From positions 924,001-988,000 of the forward strand of contig NZ_CP136520.1 of the NCBI RefSeq assembly GCF_032813545.1: a DNA stretch of 64,000 bases. Direction: 5' to 3'. The notes beneath the pieces were generated by a model. The model was not told the DNA's origin. It made no database searches and saw only the letters and a program-made list of their open reading frames with translations. Made by a program: the position numbers and the translations under genes. Source of the stretch: Nodosilinea sp. E11 (GTDB lineage: Bacteria > Cyanobacteriota > Cyanobacteriia > Phormidesmidales > Phormidesmidaceae). Below are positions 18,169 through 26,899 of the stretch, one piece after another (within the stretch, counting starts at the first letter, position 1; each line of letters opens with the position of its first letter).

Positions 18169-18259
18169 GACAATGGTGTAACTGATCCAGAGGGATGGTT
18201 CCATCCTAAGGCAGAGGTGTTATCCTCCACTGTGAGTGTGAGGTGTGAGGAAAATTAAC

Positions 18260-19735
18260 ATGGTAAGTTCTCCAGTCAGACCGCCGGGCATTGTACCTGC
18301 TGACAAACCGAGCAAAGGTACAGAGACCACCGCAGAGCTATCGGCTTTGGGACTAGGTAGATTGCAACTCCCCTCTGGCCCACTATTTGGTACCGACGGT
18401 ATTCGCGGCAAAGCCGGGGATCTTTTGACGGCTCCTTTGGCTATGGAAATTGGCTATTGGGCTGGGCTGGTTATGCAGGCTGAGGGATTAGCCGAGGGGC
18501 CAGTGATTTTAGGCCAAGACTCCCGCACCTCGGGGCCAATGCTGGCTTCGGCACTGTCCGCTGGGCTGACCTCTGCTGGTTTAGATGTATGGCACATTGG
18601 GCTGTGCCCGACCCCAGCCGTAGCCTACCTAGCCGAGTCCTGCCAGGCTTTAGGAGGAATCATGATTTCGGCCAGCCACAACCCACCTGCCGACAATGGC
18701 ATTAAGTTTTTTGGGGGCGATGGTACCAAGCTAGGCAGTACTGTACAGGCCGCTATTGAAGCCGCCTTGCGGGGCCAAGCCAATGGGGTCGCTGCTGTGA
18801 CCTTGCCCTGGGGACAGTGCTACTACCGGCCTGAGTTGGTCAATCGCTACGCCAGCTTTCTGCATGAACCCCTTCAGCCTGGCCTCGATCTAGCAGGCAT
18901 GAAGGTGGTGCTCGATATGGCCTGGGGATCAGCCACTCGCCTAGCAGAGCAGGTGTTTTTGGAAGCTGGCGCTGAAGTCATTGCTCTGCATGGTGCTCCC
19001 GATGGCGATCGCATTAATGTTGATTGCGGATCGACTCACCTTGAGCCGATCAAAGCGGCGATCGCAGCCCACGGAGCCGATTTGGGCTTTGCCTTTGATG
19101 GCGATGCCGACCGGGTAATGGCGGTAGATTCCCAAGGTCGGGTAGTCGATGGCGACTATATTCTCTATCTCTGGGGTCAGCACCTACAAGATCAGGGGCG
19201 ACTGCCCAATCACACTTTGATCTCTACGGTAATGGCTAATCTGGGCTTTGAGCGCGCCTGGGAAAAGCTGGGAGGCACCCTGGTGCGGACCCAGGTGGGC
19301 GACCAAAATGTCTACAGCGAAATGGTTAACCGAGGGGCCAAGCTCGGAGGCGAACAGTCAGGTCATATCCTCTGCCATCACTACAGTCTGACAGGCGACG
19401 GCATTCTCACCGCGTTGCATCTGGCGACGTTGGTACAGAGCTTAGGCGGGTCGTTGGCGGCCTTAGTCGATAACAGCTTTCAGACCTACCCGCAGAAACT
19501 TCAGAATGTGGCCGTAGTCGATCGCGATCGCCGCCTTAACTGGCAAGACTGCACCCCGGTTTGCCAAGCCGTGGAAGCCGCCGAGCAAGCCATGGGCAAC
19601 GAGGGTCGGGTGCTAGTGCGCCCCTCCGGCACCGAGCCAGTAATTCGAGTGATGGTCGAAGCCATTGATGCAGACCTAGTCGATCGCTGGACGCAGCATA
19701 TTGTGCAGTCAGTCAGCCAGCACCTGGCAGTGTAA
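18260..19735 (+). CDS. glmM: Phosphoglucosamine mutase
   Basis: Converts glucosamine-6-phosphate to glucosamine-1-phosphate for peptidoglycan and lipopolysaccharide precursors; 491 aa from the ATG at 18260, which has a GAGG ribosome site nine bases upstream. A GTG at 18245 is an alternative start. The alpha-D-phosphohexomutase signature is complete: [11 protein letters not shown] near the start, the phosphoserine loop [15 protein letters not shown], the metal loop [12 protein letters not shown], the sugar loop GGEQSGH, and the phosphate loop [12 protein letters not shown] at the end. The N-terminal 45 residues before FGTDGIRG are a cyanobacterial-type extension. Confidence 0.95.
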
Positions 19736-21541: not shown

Positions 21542-22021
21542 TTAAGCCATATTGGGCGGAATAGGGCTAGTTTGCTGGGCTTGTTGCAGCTGAGCTTGAA
21601 TCAAAGCCTGTACATCTTGGCGACGAATTTCGACACCGTGGCCAATTTTGCCGGGGGTTTCAAAAAAGATCAGGCTGTCGATAGGCTGCATAGCCAGCAG
21701 TTGAAAGAGGATGTGCACGACTGGCACCGGCAGTGCCATCACCTGGGGATCGTTGGCGGATTGGCCAGTAGCCGCATCTTGCAGGGTGGGATAGGCATAA
21801 ACGATATTTTTTTGGCTGTCGGGCTGGGTGCGGTTGCTGAGAGTAGTCATCATCCACCCCTGCTCTAGGGTTTGTAGCACGTAGTACTGCTCGTGCTTGA
21901 GCTGGCCTGCGATCGCCTTTAAAGTCGGTGCAATGGTGGTAATGGCGTTAGCGGTTACTCCATCGTCAGGGGCATTTTGTTGGAGAGAGGCGACTTGAGC
22001 GTCGAGATCCATTGCGATCAC
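21542..22021 (-). CDS. Conserved hypothetical cyanobacterial-type protein
   Basis: A 159-aa soluble protein with no domain I can name. It has a helical N-terminus, then LKHEQYYVLQTLEQGWMMTTLSNR, a strand-rich middle, the hydrophobic MALPVPVVHILFQLLAMQPIDSLIFFETPG, and a Gln-rich tail. Codon use and composition match neighbouring genes, supporting it as real. An ATG three codons in (22012) is an alternative start. It stands alone, divergent from the hetZ-like gene. Confidence 0.7.
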   Translation of the reverse strand: MIAMDLDAQVASLQQNAPDDGVTANAITTIAPTLKAIAGQLKHEQYYVLQTLEQGWMMTTLSNRTQPDSQKNIVYAYPTLQDAATGQSANDPQVMALPVPVVHILFQLLAMQPIDSLIFFETPGKIGHGVEIRRQDVQALIQAQLQQAQQTSPIPPNMA

Positions 22022-22328
22022 CGGGTATTGAGCAGAAAGGTAGCAGTGCTAGCGACAGATATCCCTAGGTCAATCGGCTGAATTCTCACATCGCCCTTAG
22101 ACGATTTGTCCATATATTTACGGACAGATGCTAGGATGTTGGACAACTTACAACCTGGGTTATTCTACCGATACGGCTGCTATTTATCTTTCAACTTACC
22201 CGAGGCTGGCGTTTTCGACCAGTCTAGCTGAGGTAAGCCTGCTGCCAGGTTGTAGGGGGCTGCATCCACCGCGTCACATACCTGAATATCGCTTCACTGT
22301 TTTGTGTAGCTTTTTGAGGATAGCCAGA
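22022..22328. promoter_or_regulatory. Upstream region of the hetZ-like gene
   Basis: About 300 bases between divergent genes. The translation in the hetZ frame continues upstream but is unlike coding sequence, so I treat it as leader DNA. A modest inverted repeat TGTCC-N10-GGACA (22108-22127) is present. Confidence 0.3.
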
Positions 22329-23462
22329 TTGAGTCAGGGTATCTGTACGTTGAGCGTGGATTCGCTTAGCCAGCTTTTCTACCAAGAATTAAAAACCGGC
22401 ACTGCGGCCCCCGAAACAGGATGTCGGCAGCTTGCCCAGCGTTTGGCCACAGAGGTACAGCGCATCTGTAGCGAGAGCGATCGCATTCAGGCATCGGGCG
22501 ATGTCGAATCCTGGGCCAAGTCTTTAGGCAAGCATCGTCTAGAGCAGTGTTTTAAGTACTACAACTTAGGATCACGTCAGGGGCGCGTTGAACTGCACAG
22601 CACCCTCAGCGCCATTGTCTATCGCTACATCACACCGCCCCAGGTGCAAACCAGCTATCAGGCGCGGTTAGCCCTGATCGAAGACTTCTTACAGATTTTC
22701 TACGTCGAAGCGCTCAATGCCTTTCGACGAGAGAATCAGCTAGCCGATCGCTACCAGCCCCGCACCCTGCTAGAACTCGCCGAGTTCATGGCCTTTTCAG
22801 AGCGCTACGGCAAGCGCCGCATTCCCCTACCGGGTCGTCGCAGCCAGCAGCTAATCATTCTGCGGGCCCAGACATTCTCTAAGCAGCAGCCCCCAGAGCT
22901 CGCGATTGATATTGAGCAAGCCACTGATTACGGCGGTGACGGCGATGATGTGCGCCCGGCGGCCTCCCACCAGCGGGTGCGCGAAGAGATGATCGCCCAG
23001 ACCGATGATCTACCCGAAAATTCTCTACGGGGCCGGGTGGTCGAAGAGCTGCTGGCGTACCTCAAAGAGCGCAACCAGGACGAATGTGCCGACTATTTCA
23101 CCCTGCGACTGCTCGACCTACCCACTCAAGAGATAGAGTCGCTGCTCAACCTCACCCCTCGCCAGCGCGACTATCTACAGCAACGGTTTAAGTATCATTT
23201 GTTGCGCTTTGCCCTGTCACACCATTGGGAACTGGTGCATGAGTGGCTGGAGGCGGGTCTAGAGACCAACTTAGGCCTGACCCTTCAGCAGTGGCAGCAG
23301 TTGCAAGATACGATCAGCGTCAAGCAAACTAAGTTACTAACCCTTAAACAGCAGGGCGTATCCGATGGCGAAGCAGCTAAGATCTTGGCCATGACCCCTA
23401 CCCAGTTTCAAAAACAGTGGACTAAGCTGCTGGAGCAGGCTTGGGAAATTCGTAACGTTTAA
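22329..23462 (+). CDS. hetZ: HetZ-related protein
   Basis: Homologue of HetZ, a DNA-binding protein needed early in heterocyst differentiation in Anabaena. The conserved core is easy to see: RVELHSTLSAIVYRYITPPQ, ALNAFRRENQL, LLELAEFMAFSERYGKRRIPLPGRRSQQL when read in sections, and a C-terminal pair of helix-turn-helix-like segments (LTPRQRDYLQQRF and VSDGEAAKILAMTPTQFQKQW). The frame is open from 22128, but the first 67 codons are not family-like. The TTG at 22329 is preferred because GAGGA lies eight bases upstream, giving 377 aa. GTG at 22356 is another option. The patU-like gene follows 39 bases later, the same order as in Anabaena. Confidence 0.78.
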   Translation: MSQGICTLSVDSLSQLFYQELKTGTAAPETGCRQLAQRLATEVQRICSESDRIQASGDVESWAKSLGKHRLEQCFKYYNLGSRQGRVELHSTLSAIVYRYITPPQVQTSYQARLALIEDFLQIFYVEALNAFRRENQLADRYQPRTLLELAEFMAFSERYGKRRIPLPGRRSQQLIILRAQTFSKQQPPELAIDIEQATDYGGDGDDVRPAASHQRVREEMIAQTDDLPENSLRGRVVEELLAYLKERNQDECADYFTLRLLDLPTQEIESLLNLTPRQRDYLQQRFKYHLLRFALSHHWELVHEWLEAGLETNLGLTLQQWQQLQDTISVKQTKLLTLKQQGVSDGEAAKILAMTPTQFQKQWTKLLEQAWEIRNV

Positions 23463-23501: not shown

Positions 23502-24506
23502 ATGAATAGAGACTCAGATATCCCCGAAGACATCCTTCTAAGGCTTTTACTAGAGCCCCTTTCGACGGATGACTCGCCATCAGGAACGCACTTTTTTCCG
23601 GCGGTTGATGCTGAGACGGCTGAGCTGGAGGGGCTAGATACTGCACCTACCTCTCAGGTCTACCCTGGCTTTGAGACATCTACTCCAGCATCAGCAACGC
23701 CAGGTAACGCCGCGATCGATAGTAACGACACCCCTGTTTTTGACTCTGGAGACCTATCCACTGTGCAACCTCATTTCGAAGCCCTTTTGAAGCGCCGCCT
23801 GCGGCAAGAGATTACCCAACGCCCGCCTCTGTTTCCTTGGGAAAAAGGATTGCAAGAGTATCCTGACACCCTAAAGTCTGGCACAGCGTCTATTTGGTTA
23901 GACCACCTCAAAAATCTTTCGGTTCCCAGCAGGCTGCCCGAAGAGGTCTTGAGCGATCTATTCAACCAGTGCCAGCAAGCAGTACACGAAATTCGCCAAA
24001 CCGGACGACGGCTAGTGGTCGCGGTAGAAGAGTTGTTTCCCGACCAGCCCCAAACCCTAGAATATATTGCAGGACTAGTGGCTCGGCCTGCCTATCGCTC
24101 GGCCCAGACGCAAACCCTGGCTCAGGTCGATTACGCCACTGCATCCACCCCGCAGCAGGTGGCCCTGGCTATGCTGGCTGCCCAGGGTATTTTTGAAGCC
24201 CTGTCGCTAACGGTATCGGCGACCAACCCCACCCAAACGCAAACTTGGCTGGCCACAGCGGGTGCGCTGACAGTGCAGGCTACCTATCAGGCAGCTCCAG
24301 ATTGTCAGCTTGAGGTGAGGGTGCTGCTGCCGACTAGCGGCAGTTTGGTGCTCACTGCGCTGGGCGATACCCTAGGATCTGAGCGCACAACCCCCGGTGA
24401 GTTGGTGTTGCGCTTGGTAGCCGCACCCGGTGCGGTACATCGTTTGGATGTCAGTCTGGAAGGGGAGACTCCGTTAAGCTTTCAGATTGTAGTGGCCGAT
24501 GATTAA
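23502..24506 (+). CDS. patU: PatU-like protein
   Basis: A 334-aa protein with an acidic, Thr/Ser-rich N-terminus (MNRDSDIPEDILLRLLLEPL), a linker, then a helical region beginning LKRRLRQEITQRPPLFPWEKG followed by WLDHLKNLSVPSRLPEEVLSDL. The PPLFPWE segment and the position directly behind hetZ are characteristic of PatU. In Anabaena the gene is split into patU5 and patU3; here it is a single ORF, as reported for filamentous cyanobacteria without heterocysts. The C-terminal 100 residues form a strand-rich domain. Its molecular function is not established. Confidence 0.72.
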   Translation: MNRDSDIPEDILLRLLLEPLSTDDSPSGTHFFPAVDAETAELEGLDTAPTSQVYPGFETSTPASATPGNAAIDSNDTPVFDSGDLSTVQPHFEALLKRRLRQEITQRPPLFPWEKGLQEYPDTLKSGTASIWLDHLKNLSVPSRLPEEVLSDLFNQCQQAVHEIRQTGRRLVVAVEELFPDQPQTLEYIAGLVARPAYRSAQTQTLAQVDYATASTPQQVALAMLAAQGIFEALSLTVSATNPTQTQTWLATAGALTVQATYQAAPDCQLEVRVLLPTSGSLVLTALGDTLGSERTTPGELVLRLVAAPGAVHRLDVSLEGETPLSFQIVVADD

Positions 24507-24601
24507 CCCTCCCGATTGAGGCAGGTGCAGGCCTCTGCCTTAATCTGGGCAGAGGCTAGTTCAGCGGTTAGCATGGAGGCGACCCTCACCCCGTTGCCGC
24601 C

Positions 24602-26899
24602 ATGGTTGCTTCGCGCTGGATAGCCTCGTCTCCTTTGGCTAGGCCGATTCCGCCCCAGGAAATTGAAGATTCTTTGTTACTGCGGGTGCTAGTGCAGGTG
24701 CTGGTGACCCTGGGCATTTGCTCGGTGGTAGTGGCGGCGGCGGGGGTCACTCAGGCGTCTTGGTGGAATTTGCTGGCAGTGCCCTTGAGCGCTGTGGGAG
24801 CAGCCTTTAGCTGGCAACGCCGCCGCGATCGCAACGTGGCGGTTAAATTCTTTATTGCCATTGGCATGCTGATGGCCTTGGCAGCTTTTTTCTCCCGGTT
24901 GATTGAGCAGCCGGGCGATACCCGAATTGTGCTGGCGGAGCTGCTGGTGCAATTGCAGGTGCTACACAGCTTTGACTTACCCCGGCGCAAAGACCTAGGC
25001 TACTCGATGATGATTGGCCTAATTTTGCTAGGGGTGGCCGCCACCATTAGCCAGACCTTGGCCTTTGCCCCGCTACTCCTGCTGTTTTTGGCGGTAGCGG
25101 TGCCAGTGCTGGGGCTAGATTATCAGTCGCGCCTGGGCTTGGGTGGTGGAGCCTGGGGCAACGTCAAACTGCGACCGACCCTGGGACGATTTCTTGGTCT
25201 AGTGGCACTAATCGTGAGTCTGGGCCTGCTGATCTTTTTATTTTTGCCGCGACTGCCGGGATACCAGATTCAGAATTTTCCGGTGAGCTCGGTGATCGAC
25301 ACCCCCGACGACTTTTCGGGCGAAAGCATTATTAACCCGGCCTACCAGCGCAACGGTAACGAAGCTGGCGAGGGGTTTGAGGACGGCGAGGGCGGCACCA
25401 TTCAGGGCAGCGGCAGCAGCCGAGCCAGCGGTCCCGGTGTGATCGATCTGACGTCTTACTACGGCTTTAACCAGCGCATGAATCAAAATCTGCGGGGCAT
25501 TATGACCCCCCAGGTGGTGATGCGGGTCAGGTCGCAGGCTCCGGGCTTTTGGCGAGTGCTCGCCTTTGACACATACACCGGTCAGGGGTGGGATATCTCG
25601 CGCAATGACGACCCCCAGCGGGTGCGGCGCTGGCGATTTTCCAGCCAGATGTTCTTGCCCATTACCCCCACCTTGGCCCGCTACCGAGAGGTGGTGCAAA
25701 CCTACACCCTAGTCAGCGAACTGCCCAACCTGATTCCGGCCATGTATCAGCCTAGGGAACTGTACTTTCCTACCCGGGAGGTAGCGATCGATGCCGAGGG
25801 CAGTCTGAGGTCGCCAGTTCTCCTGCAAGAGGGTATGACCTATTCAGTCGTGTCGCGGGTGCCCTACCGCGATCGCACCCAGCTGCGCGAGGCCGGTACC
25901 AACTATCCGCCCGGCATGCGATCGCACTACCTGCAAGTACCTGACGCTATTCTCGAGCCGGTGCGGGCCAAAACCGAGGAATTGCTGGCCACCTCTCCCA
26001 CCCCCCTAAGCGATCCCTACGAAAAAGCGCTCTACCTGGCTCAGGCCCTCAAGCAGCGCTACACCATCCAGCCTGAGCTGCCCTTTTTCACCGCTGACCA
26101 AGACCTAGTCGAGAGTTTTCTATTTACAACCGAAGGGGGTTACCCCGACCACTTCTCCACCGTGCTGACCGTCATGCTGCGCTCCATCGACATTCCAGCG
26201 CGGCTGGTGGCCGGGTTTGGCGAAGGCGACTTCAACCCCTTAACGGGGTTTTACGTAGTGCGCAACACCGATGCCTACGCCATCACCGAGGTTTACTTTC
26301 CCCAATACGGCTGGTTTGGCTTTGACCCCATTCCGGGGCACGAACTAATTCCTCCCAGCCTGAGAGAGTACGAAGCCTTTAGCCTAGTGCGGCGGTTTTG
26401 GAACTGGCTAGCCGGTTGGTTACCCTCCCCATTAGTGGGCCTTGTCGAAGGCTTGATCACCCTACTCAGTGAGGGATTAGCTTACTTAATCCGCACCTTT
26501 AACGCCCTGCTGACCCTAGGCTGGGTTGGCATTATGGTAGGCATTGCCGCCGCCACTGGCCTGGGCTTTGCTAGCTGGCTGGCCTTTTTGGGCCTGCGGC
26601 GCGGCTGGCGCTACCAACAACTGCGCCGCATGGCTCCCACCGAACGCCTATATCAACAAATGCTGACCTGTTTTGACCAGCGGGGGCTAGGCAAAACCCC
26701 CACCGAAACCCCCCTCGAACACAGCCAACGCCTGTACCAGCAAACCCAACCCCAGCCGGCCCAGGCCGCCAACGAAATTGCCCATGCCTACGTACGCTGG
26801 CGCTACGGCGGCGAGCCTCAAAACTTAACGTACCTGGGCGAGAAATTGCGGATCATTCGGCAAAATCGCCCCGAACGTCAGCGGGCAATCCAGCGCTAA
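24602..26899 (+). CDS. Transglutaminase-fold membrane protein with lost catalytic residues
   Basis: A 765-aa protein of the TgpA-like DUF3488-transglutaminase-DUF4129 architecture. Residues 20-230 hold several membrane segments, residues 250-620 an extracytoplasmic part with the transglutaminase core, residues 635-665 a further membrane segment, and the C-terminus a DUF4129-type cytoplasmic tail. In active enzymes the core reads GYCEHF, then DAHAW, then DP. Here it reads GYPDHF (Pro515 instead of Cys), DAYAI (Tyr559 instead of His) and FDP (Asp575 kept). Two of three triad residues are therefore absent, so protease or transglutaminase activity is unlikely. A binding or scaffold role in the envelope is inference. 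It follows hetZ-patU on the same strand, 95 bases after patU. Confidence 0.88.
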   Translation: MVASRWIASSPLARPIPPQEIEDSLLLRVLVQVLVTLGICSVVVAAAGVTQASWWNLLAVPLSAVGAAFSWQRRRDRNVAVKFFIAIGMLMALAAFFSRLIEQPGDTRIVLAELLVQLQVLHSFDLPRRKDLGYSMMIGLILLGVAATISQTLAFAPLLLLFLAVAVPVLGLDYQSRLGLGGGAWGNVKLRPTLGRFLGLVALIVSLGLLIFLFLPRLPGYQIQNFPVSSVIDTPDDFSGESIINPAYQRNGNEAGEGFEDGEGGTIQGSGSSRASGPGVIDLTSYYGFNQRMNQNLRGIMTPQVVMRVRSQAPGFWRVLAFDTYTGQGWDISRNDDPQRVRRWRFSSQMFLPITPTLARYREVVQTYTLVSELPNLIPAMYQPRELYFPTREVAIDAEGSLRSPVLLQEGMTYSVVSRVPYRDRTQLREAGTNYPPGMRSHYLQVPDAILEPVRAKTEELLATSPTPLSDPYEKALYLAQALKQRYTIQPELPFFTADQDLVESFLFTTEGGYPDHFSTVLTVMLRSIDIPARLVAGFGEGDFNPLTGFYVVRNTDAYAITEVYFPQYGWFGFDPIPGHELIPPSLREYEAFSLVRRFWNWLAGWLPSPLVGLVEGLITLLSEGLAYLIRTFNALLTLGWVGIMVGIAAATGLGFASWLAFLGLRRGWRYQQLRRMAPTERLYQQMLTCFDQRGLGKTPTETPLEHSQRLYQQTQPQPAQAANEIAHAYVRWRYGGEPQNLTYLGEKLRIIRQNRPERQRAIQR

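Follow-up and report, generated by a model that had tools for sequence, protein, structure and literature searches.

A putative pseudo-transglutaminase of the cyanobacterial membrane and its linkage to hetZ and patU

Introduction

What does a membrane protein of transglutaminase fold do once two of its three catalytic residues have been replaced, and why does its gene lie behind hetZ and patU, which regulate how cells divide and differentiate? The question is raised by a gene in the window (the whole 64,000-nucleotide stretch of Nodosilinea sp. E11 DNA that was analysed), for which the original prediction proposed a pseudoenzyme that is otherwise intact. Our leading reading, which we hold with middling confidence, is that of a periplasmic, membrane-anchored pseudo-transglutaminase, which would bind a partner without modifying it and would be joined in filamentous lineages to the control of the septal wall by HetZ and PatU. 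The gene and the parts of its product are listed below.

24602..26899, + strand: pseudo-transglutaminase membrane protein (TgpA_N + Transglut_core + DUF4129), 765 aa; open ORF, ATG start, Pfam
24719..25270, + strand: TgpA_N membrane region, residues 40-223; Pfam best stretch, model helices, hydropathy
26006..26329, + strand: transglutaminase-fold core, residues 469-576; Pfam, predicted model, structure match to TgpA
26144..26146, + strand: Pro515 codon CCC, in the place of the catalytic Cys; alignment to TgpA, orthologue columns
26177..26179, + strand: Leu526 codon, clade-specific; orthologue columns
26264..26266, + strand: Asn555 codon, clade-specific; orthologue columns
26276..26278, + strand: Tyr559 codon TAC, in the place of the catalytic His; alignment to TgpA, orthologue columns
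26324..26326, + strand: Asp575 codon GAC, catalytic Asp kept; alignment to TgpA, orthologue columns
26648..26824, + strand: DUF4129, residues 683-741, probably cytoplasmic; Pfam, model

Domain layout and predicted fold

All three domains scored above the Pfam cut-offs in the 765-aa protein (E-values of 1e-20 for TgpA_N, 6.9e-19 for Transglut_core and 2.2e-13 for DUF4129), and the same layout is found family-wide (TgpA_N in 63, Transglut_core in 63 and DUF4129 in 62 of 63 aligned members). In the sequence match to TgpA of P. aeruginosa (6g49), GYPDHF is opposite GFCAHY and DAYAI is opposite DAHAW; as first proposed, Pro515 stands in the place of the triad Cys and Tyr559 in that of the His, and Asp575 is kept.

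The predicted model has a mean pLDDT of 85.7, with values of 97-98 in 10 of the 12 ten-residue blocks over residues 461-580. Pro515 is the first residue of a predicted helix (515-528), a position where proline is well tolerated. The best solved match of the model is TgpA (6g49; VIA-align Z 24.1, 3.2 A over 262 residues, model residues 284-581; Foldseek E 1.7e-16), and the protein is predicted to share the periplasmic fold of TgpA (PA2873; 6g49/6g4h). The domains, the confident model and this match all agree with the earlier statement that fold and membrane layout are intact apart from the triad. From model helices and hydropathy, we infer an N-terminus on the cytoplasmic side with five to seven spans behind it, and one or two helices near the C-terminus; residues ~215-605 would then be periplasmic and the DUF4129 tail cytoplasmic.

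In the Nodosilinea sp. E11 genome the protein is the sole match to TgpA_N and one of six matches to Transglut_core. The TgpA_N search also hit a protein of Synechococcus elongatus, as a control. By pattern search, three short Transglut_core proteins of this genome (L194, L195 and L198) have the motif Cys and His; two more, read by eye, have GSCGEY with NHVW (L196) and GFCFA with LHGLN (L197). Plasmid records gave 24 matches, every one below 60% identity and none covering 80% of the query.

Linkage of the gene to hetZ and patU

The neighbours of the gene in the window are as follows.

21542..22021, - strand: divergent 159-aa gene next to hetZ; conserved, without Pfam or NCBIfam match
22128..23462, + strand: hetZ, ORF as called; NCBIfam equivalog NF037963, 605 bits (cut-off 550)
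23502..24506, + strand: patU, 334-aa ORF; place behind hetZ and similarity to the same-place gene elsewhere, naming after PMC7377430
27010..28353, + strand: argD-like aminotransferase, downstream neighbour; family match, certain lineages only

The gene does follow hetZ and patU on the same strand, with HetZ identified by NF037963 and PatU by place and similarity (the patU ORF has no Pfam or NCBIfam match). The HetZ family match starts at residue 81 of the ORF, so the true hetZ start may be internal. The gap between hetZ and patU is 39 bases and that between patU and the pseudo-transglutaminase gene 95 bases, which does not by itself prove an operon. A consensus scan found no promoter-like or terminator-like sites in the latter gap (24507-24601); its totals were 1 promoter-like site versus 2.9 in shuffles and 10 terminator-like sites versus 5.8 (sd 2.6). 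MoxR-DUF58, the neighbours of TgpA, were not found beside the gene, whose neighbours are hetZ, patU and argD; the genome has two DUF58 matches, both at other places. The argD-like gene was considered as a functional neighbour and dropped because it is restricted to part of the lineages (21 of 113 loci, window included).

Two other genes near the cluster may be mentioned. The type of the 159-aa gene (21542-22021) occurs in 99 of 292 genomes of the phylum; its protein model has a mean pLDDT of 87.4 and weak fold matches (all Z <8, best 7.8), of which the second and fourth are chloroplast motor-complex chains and the third and fifth are Tic22 chains (4e6z, 4ev1). Upstream of the cluster, an ORF at 18245-19735 (+ strand) was read by eye as phosphoglucosamine mutase-like (a cell-wall precursor enzyme).

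Among the 292 genomes drawn from the phylum, 119 contain a match to the protein, including 18 from other classes and nine from the same class with intact-type matches only (all nine read Cys-His-Asp); by match strength, the type without the catalytic Cys (Cys-less) is thus present in 92 (119 - 18 - 9, counted by hand). HetZ scored above its family cut-off in 62 of the 292, and 59 of these also have the Cys-less protein. The two genes are at most 8 kb apart in 49 of the 59 genomes and in 11 of 16 families, so the arrangement is not peculiar to Nodosilinea sp. E11. Among the 49 linked genomes, 48 have both genes on the same strand (including one with a fused gene, G022, see below) and one has them on opposite strands. 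Linkage is not visible in the other 10 of the 59, where the genes are far apart on one contig (2 genomes) or on different contigs (8 genomes, including G153 and G116, where genes near contig ends or a short contig make the case unjudgeable). In one genome (G149, locus L188) a local flip has turned the gene round in its place behind hetZ-patU.

With at least 2.5 kb of upstream sequence, hetZ was found upstream in 32 of 45 and 31 of 58 loci of two sets that include near copies and share some genomes; no hetZ was found in the available flank of four near relatives (L043, L045, L072 and L082). The gap from patU to the gene ranges from 13 to 3446 bases with a median of 102 (65 loci, near copies included). 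When the neighbours at 113 loci were clustered, PatU-type proteins were counted at 70, polyprenyl-synthetase-type at 23-24, glutamate-racemase-type at 16-17 and amidase-type at 13. A longer row (amidase, racemase, polyprenyl synthetase, divergent gene, hetZ, patU, pseudo-transglutaminase) occurs in 13 to 23 of the 113 loci, with Pfam checked on one of them (L092). The linkage is widespread but not obligatory.

These exceptions bear on a different explanation, namely that the protein is a general envelope pseudo-transglutaminase of cyanobacteria without any tie to HetZ or PatU, whose adjacency to them reflects inherited order, shared expression or chance. We consider this possible, if short of likely. 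As many as 33 of the 92 Cys-less genomes have no hetZ over the cut-off (30 of them, by hand tally, in families without hetZ in any drawn genome; one of the 33, G255, has hetZ in two pieces), so the basic role of the protein cannot depend on HetZ-PatU. In three genomes with hetZ and a patU-like gene (G051, G087 and G233), the pseudo-transglutaminase is absent. In the one-contig genome G022 (L093:7989-10799, + strand), patU is lost and a 936-aa in-frame protein joins HetZ (positions 1-342 of 366) to the pseudo-transglutaminase from residue 203 onward, i.e. to its periplasmic part. We rejected this fusion as evidence of a working complex, since hetZ and a patU-like gene are present in the sister genome G292 (L187), where the pseudo-transglutaminase is cut to 96 aa, and both cases look like erosion in that genus. 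Absence in three hetZ genomes, and truncation or fusion in one genus, indicate that hetZ does not need the protein. In two families where hetZ does not reach the cut-off, three loci (L100, L101 and G005 C142:14985-17119) have a divergent gene of the 21542 type directly beside the pseudo-transglutaminase gene, which fits a general role as well; this arrangement may instead be a scar of hetZ-patU loss (the tree described below supports the branches around L100 weakly and does not include L101 or G005). Against a purely general role stand the linkage in 11 of the 16 hetZ families and the PatU-type neighbour at 70 of 113 loci versus 13-24 for the other neighbours.

Catalytic positions across Cyanobacteriia

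We compared the triad positions in 118 Cyanobacteriia orthologues (distinct over residues 300-699, scoring >840 bits and with a residue at 515). Motifs were read in fetched loci, where gene calls are longest-ORF picks. The longer L071 piece is counted among the 118; the shorter L071 piece, both L079 pieces, both L101 pieces and the fragments L072 and L088 are outside (L088 and one L079 piece are likewise Pro-Tyr-Asp). Measured against the triad of TgpA, Cys is present at 515 in 0 of the 118, His at 559 in 11 and Asp at 575 in 102. Position 515 is Pro in 97, Arg in nine, Ala in eight, Glu in two, Val in one and Ile in one; position 559 is Tyr in 90, Phe in 13, His in 11 and Gln in four; and position 575 is Asp in 102 and Asn in 16. 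The question whether Pro and Tyr are fixed in homologues is thus answered in part: the two residues are common without being fixed, and the invariant feature is the lack of Cys (118/118). Seven orthologues read Arg-Tyr-Asn, so that all three triad places are altered in them. The most divergent Cys-less members, L134 and L135 (family f26), are 42-43% identical and have Glu-Gln-Asp at the three places.

Two further positions separate the Cys-less proteins from their Cys-bearing relatives. Leu526 is found in 118/118 Cys-less proteins, versus Ala or Gly in 15 of 16 Cys-bearing relatives (Leu in one), and Asn555 in 118/118, versus Thr, Ser or Gly in 16/16. Newly fixed residues of this kind are a trace expected from a changed function.

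Homologues with an intact triad were looked for in close relatives and none was found there; the nearest Cys-His-Asp proteins turned out to belong to other classes of the phylum (28-33% identity in the alignment, which holds 63 of 82 sequences, and 32-40% in local matches). All 16 long other-class relatives examined have Cys515, His559 and Asp575. PsaA/PsaB were found in none of the 18 other-class genomes and in 8 of 8 Cyanobacteriia tested; nine of the 18 are <90% complete or >5% contaminated, so single absences are weak, and it is the 18 taken as a set that points to the intact relatives belonging to classes without photosystem I.

In a tree of 104 of 188 rows, built with columns 515, 517, 559 and 575 masked, a branch with SH-aLRT of 100 separates the 70 Cys-less rows from all others, and 15 Cys-bearing other-class rows adjoin them (support of the union, 96). 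Rows <600 or >1100 aa, the G022 fusion and near copies (>78% identical) were dropped; the tree is from a quick method, with no bootstrap and a weak root. A small intact group of the same class (L132, L163) is outside both the Cys-less clade and its Cys-bearing neighbours. Mapped on this tree, Cys changes once, position 515 eleven times and position 559 nineteen times. Judged from these sequences, the catalytic Cys was apparently lost once, long ago.

Could the protein still be an active enzyme, in which a different residue replaces the Cys in some other chemistry? The pocket is well kept (Asp516 in 116/118, His517 in 107/118, Asp557 in 116/118), and we nonetheless find this very improbable. 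A substitute Cys was rejected, with no Cys in residues 226-582 (the periplasmic part) in 113/118 and some Cys in five; Ser519 is replaced by Ala, Pro or Val in 22/118; position 559 alternates among Tyr, Phe, His and Gln and 575 between Asp and Asn, down to the seven Arg-Tyr-Asn proteins; and positions 515 and 559 change repeatedly in the tree. A non-catalytic, partner-binding protein remains the reading we follow.

Conservation of the core

When five regions were compared in 70 diverse sequences, conservation was highest in the transglutaminase core, with a mean column entropy of 1.03 bits (versus 1.29-1.96 in the four others) and 32% of its columns at least 95% conserved. In eight pairs of close relatives, chosen among 12 Nodosilinea-type sequences, dN/dS is 0.042-0.128 for the whole gene and 0.020-0.079 for the core, which is the lowest of four regions in six pairs (in L037/L039 the N-terminal region is below the core, and in L037/L042 all three other regions are). 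With Cys515 absent throughout and a confident predicted fold, these values bear out the pseudoenzyme of the original prediction, and the protein probably lacks catalysis. That the gene is decaying and being lost is scarcely credible, for although it is broken in G292 and G022, absent from G051, G087 and G233, and in pieces at L071, L079 and L101, and although Mastigocladus laminosus UU774 and strain PCC 9339 are reported to have a stop at codon 13 of the gene next to patU (according to excerpts of PMC9284123), the conserved core of the 70 sequences and the low dN/dS of the eight pairs argue against decay.

Relation to known proteins

Other cyanobacterial TgpA-like proteins differ from the Cys-less family. 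The paralogues L164-L169 (675-702 aa) have a transglutaminase core with Cys-His-Asp intact and are distant in the tree, and both types occur together in at least six genomes (G030, G074, G099, G127, G231 and G255), with up to three candidates scored per genome. For L166, the one paralogue run against Pfam, MoxR-type AAA, DUF58 and transglutaminase genes are in a row and TgpA_N is unmatched.

Transglutaminase folds that do not catalyse are known elsewhere. Protein 4.2 of red cells (7uzs, 8cs9_X) matches the model at Z 9.0-9.3 and uses the fold as a binding part of a membrane complex; it is catalytically inactive, with an inactivity of separate origin, and it is eukaryotic and cytoplasmic, without membrane helices or DUF4129. 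XPC/Rad4 has an inactive transglutaminase fold too, and XPC-TFIIH entries match the model at Z about 7. Among the open-access matches listed, in the excerpts they offer, we did not meet a TgpA-type clade with one old loss, maintained throughout a bacterial class and linked to hetZ-patU.

TgpA itself has PF11992 and PF01841 like this protein (DUF4129 was compared within the present family alone), and excerpts of PMC3507681 describe it as periplasmic, with a catalytic triad and transglutaminase activity in vitro, and report the authors' proposal of a cell-wall-linked role; in the Nodosilinea protein Cys and His are gone. For HvyA, another periplasmic transglutaminase-type protein, catalytic residues are required (excerpt of PMC4241560), so non-catalytic action should not be presumed here.

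In most linked genomes the gene sits behind the same two genes of the hetZ-patU cluster, and the published cluster, as given in excerpts of PMC12288457 and PMC7377430, is hetZ-patU5-patU3, with the pseudo-transglutaminase gene not counted in. By its place in the patU cluster, BLD44_015595 of M. laminosus UU774 is probably the same gene; it is described as a transglutaminase that two strains carry in broken form and that is functional in PCC 7120, and the excerpted account makes no mention of missing catalytic residues (PMC9284123). No open-access paper was found for the possible PCC 7120 tags alr0102, all0102, asr0102 and alr0103 among the matches listed.

In a review (PMC12288457), PatU3 is credited with limiting septal peptidoglycan synthesis and binding the divisome protein ZipS; it also interacts with HetZ (PMC7377430), and hetZ and patU3 are members of a ten-gene set of filamentous species (PMC2821919). 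In PCC 7120, amiC1, amiC2 and murI are alr0092-0094, with hetZ at alr0099 and patU3 at alr0101 (PMC8472315), and septal nanopores are made by AmiC amidases (PMC5591844).

Discussion

A mechanism consistent with these observations can be sketched. An inner-membrane clade of TgpA type would have lost its catalytic Cys once and then been kept as a non-catalytic protein. Its membrane helices (N-terminal, plus one or two C-terminal) would anchor a large periplasmic domain with the transglutaminase fold, and the DUF4129 tail would be in the cytoplasm. The fold may bind, but not cross-link, a periplasmic target (an envelope protein, say, or a peptide of peptidoglycan), and the binding state could be passed to the cytoplasmic side, or instructions taken from there. 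In filamentous lineages the gene would have become the third of hetZ-patU, with PatU as the most likely partner and the protein as a membrane and periplasmic arm of the control of septal peptidoglycan. The binding role, the septal wall as target, the signalling between cytoplasm and periplasm and the co-operation with PatU are all put forward here as what the protein may do.

Bolder, and rather unlikely in our own estimate, is the idea that the protein is an overlooked, membrane-spanning third member of the hetZ-patU system that senses septal peptidoglycan in the periplasm and relays its state to PatU and HetZ. Growth of the septal wall would thereby be coupled to the choice between division and differentiation, and the origin of the protein would be an ancestral wall transglutaminase whose Cys disappeared at an early point of the oxygenic lineage.

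If the leading reading is true, the protein would be a testable candidate for the link by which HetZ and PatU, taken as cytoplasmic, reach wall synthesis across the membrane. As a statement of activity, the label 'transglutaminase' on these genes is probably wrong. For the family, the case would be a bacterial one of an enzyme fold kept class-wide after an apparently single loss of the catalytic Cys, against which the triad-bearing relatives, from classes that lack photosystem I genes, can be compared.
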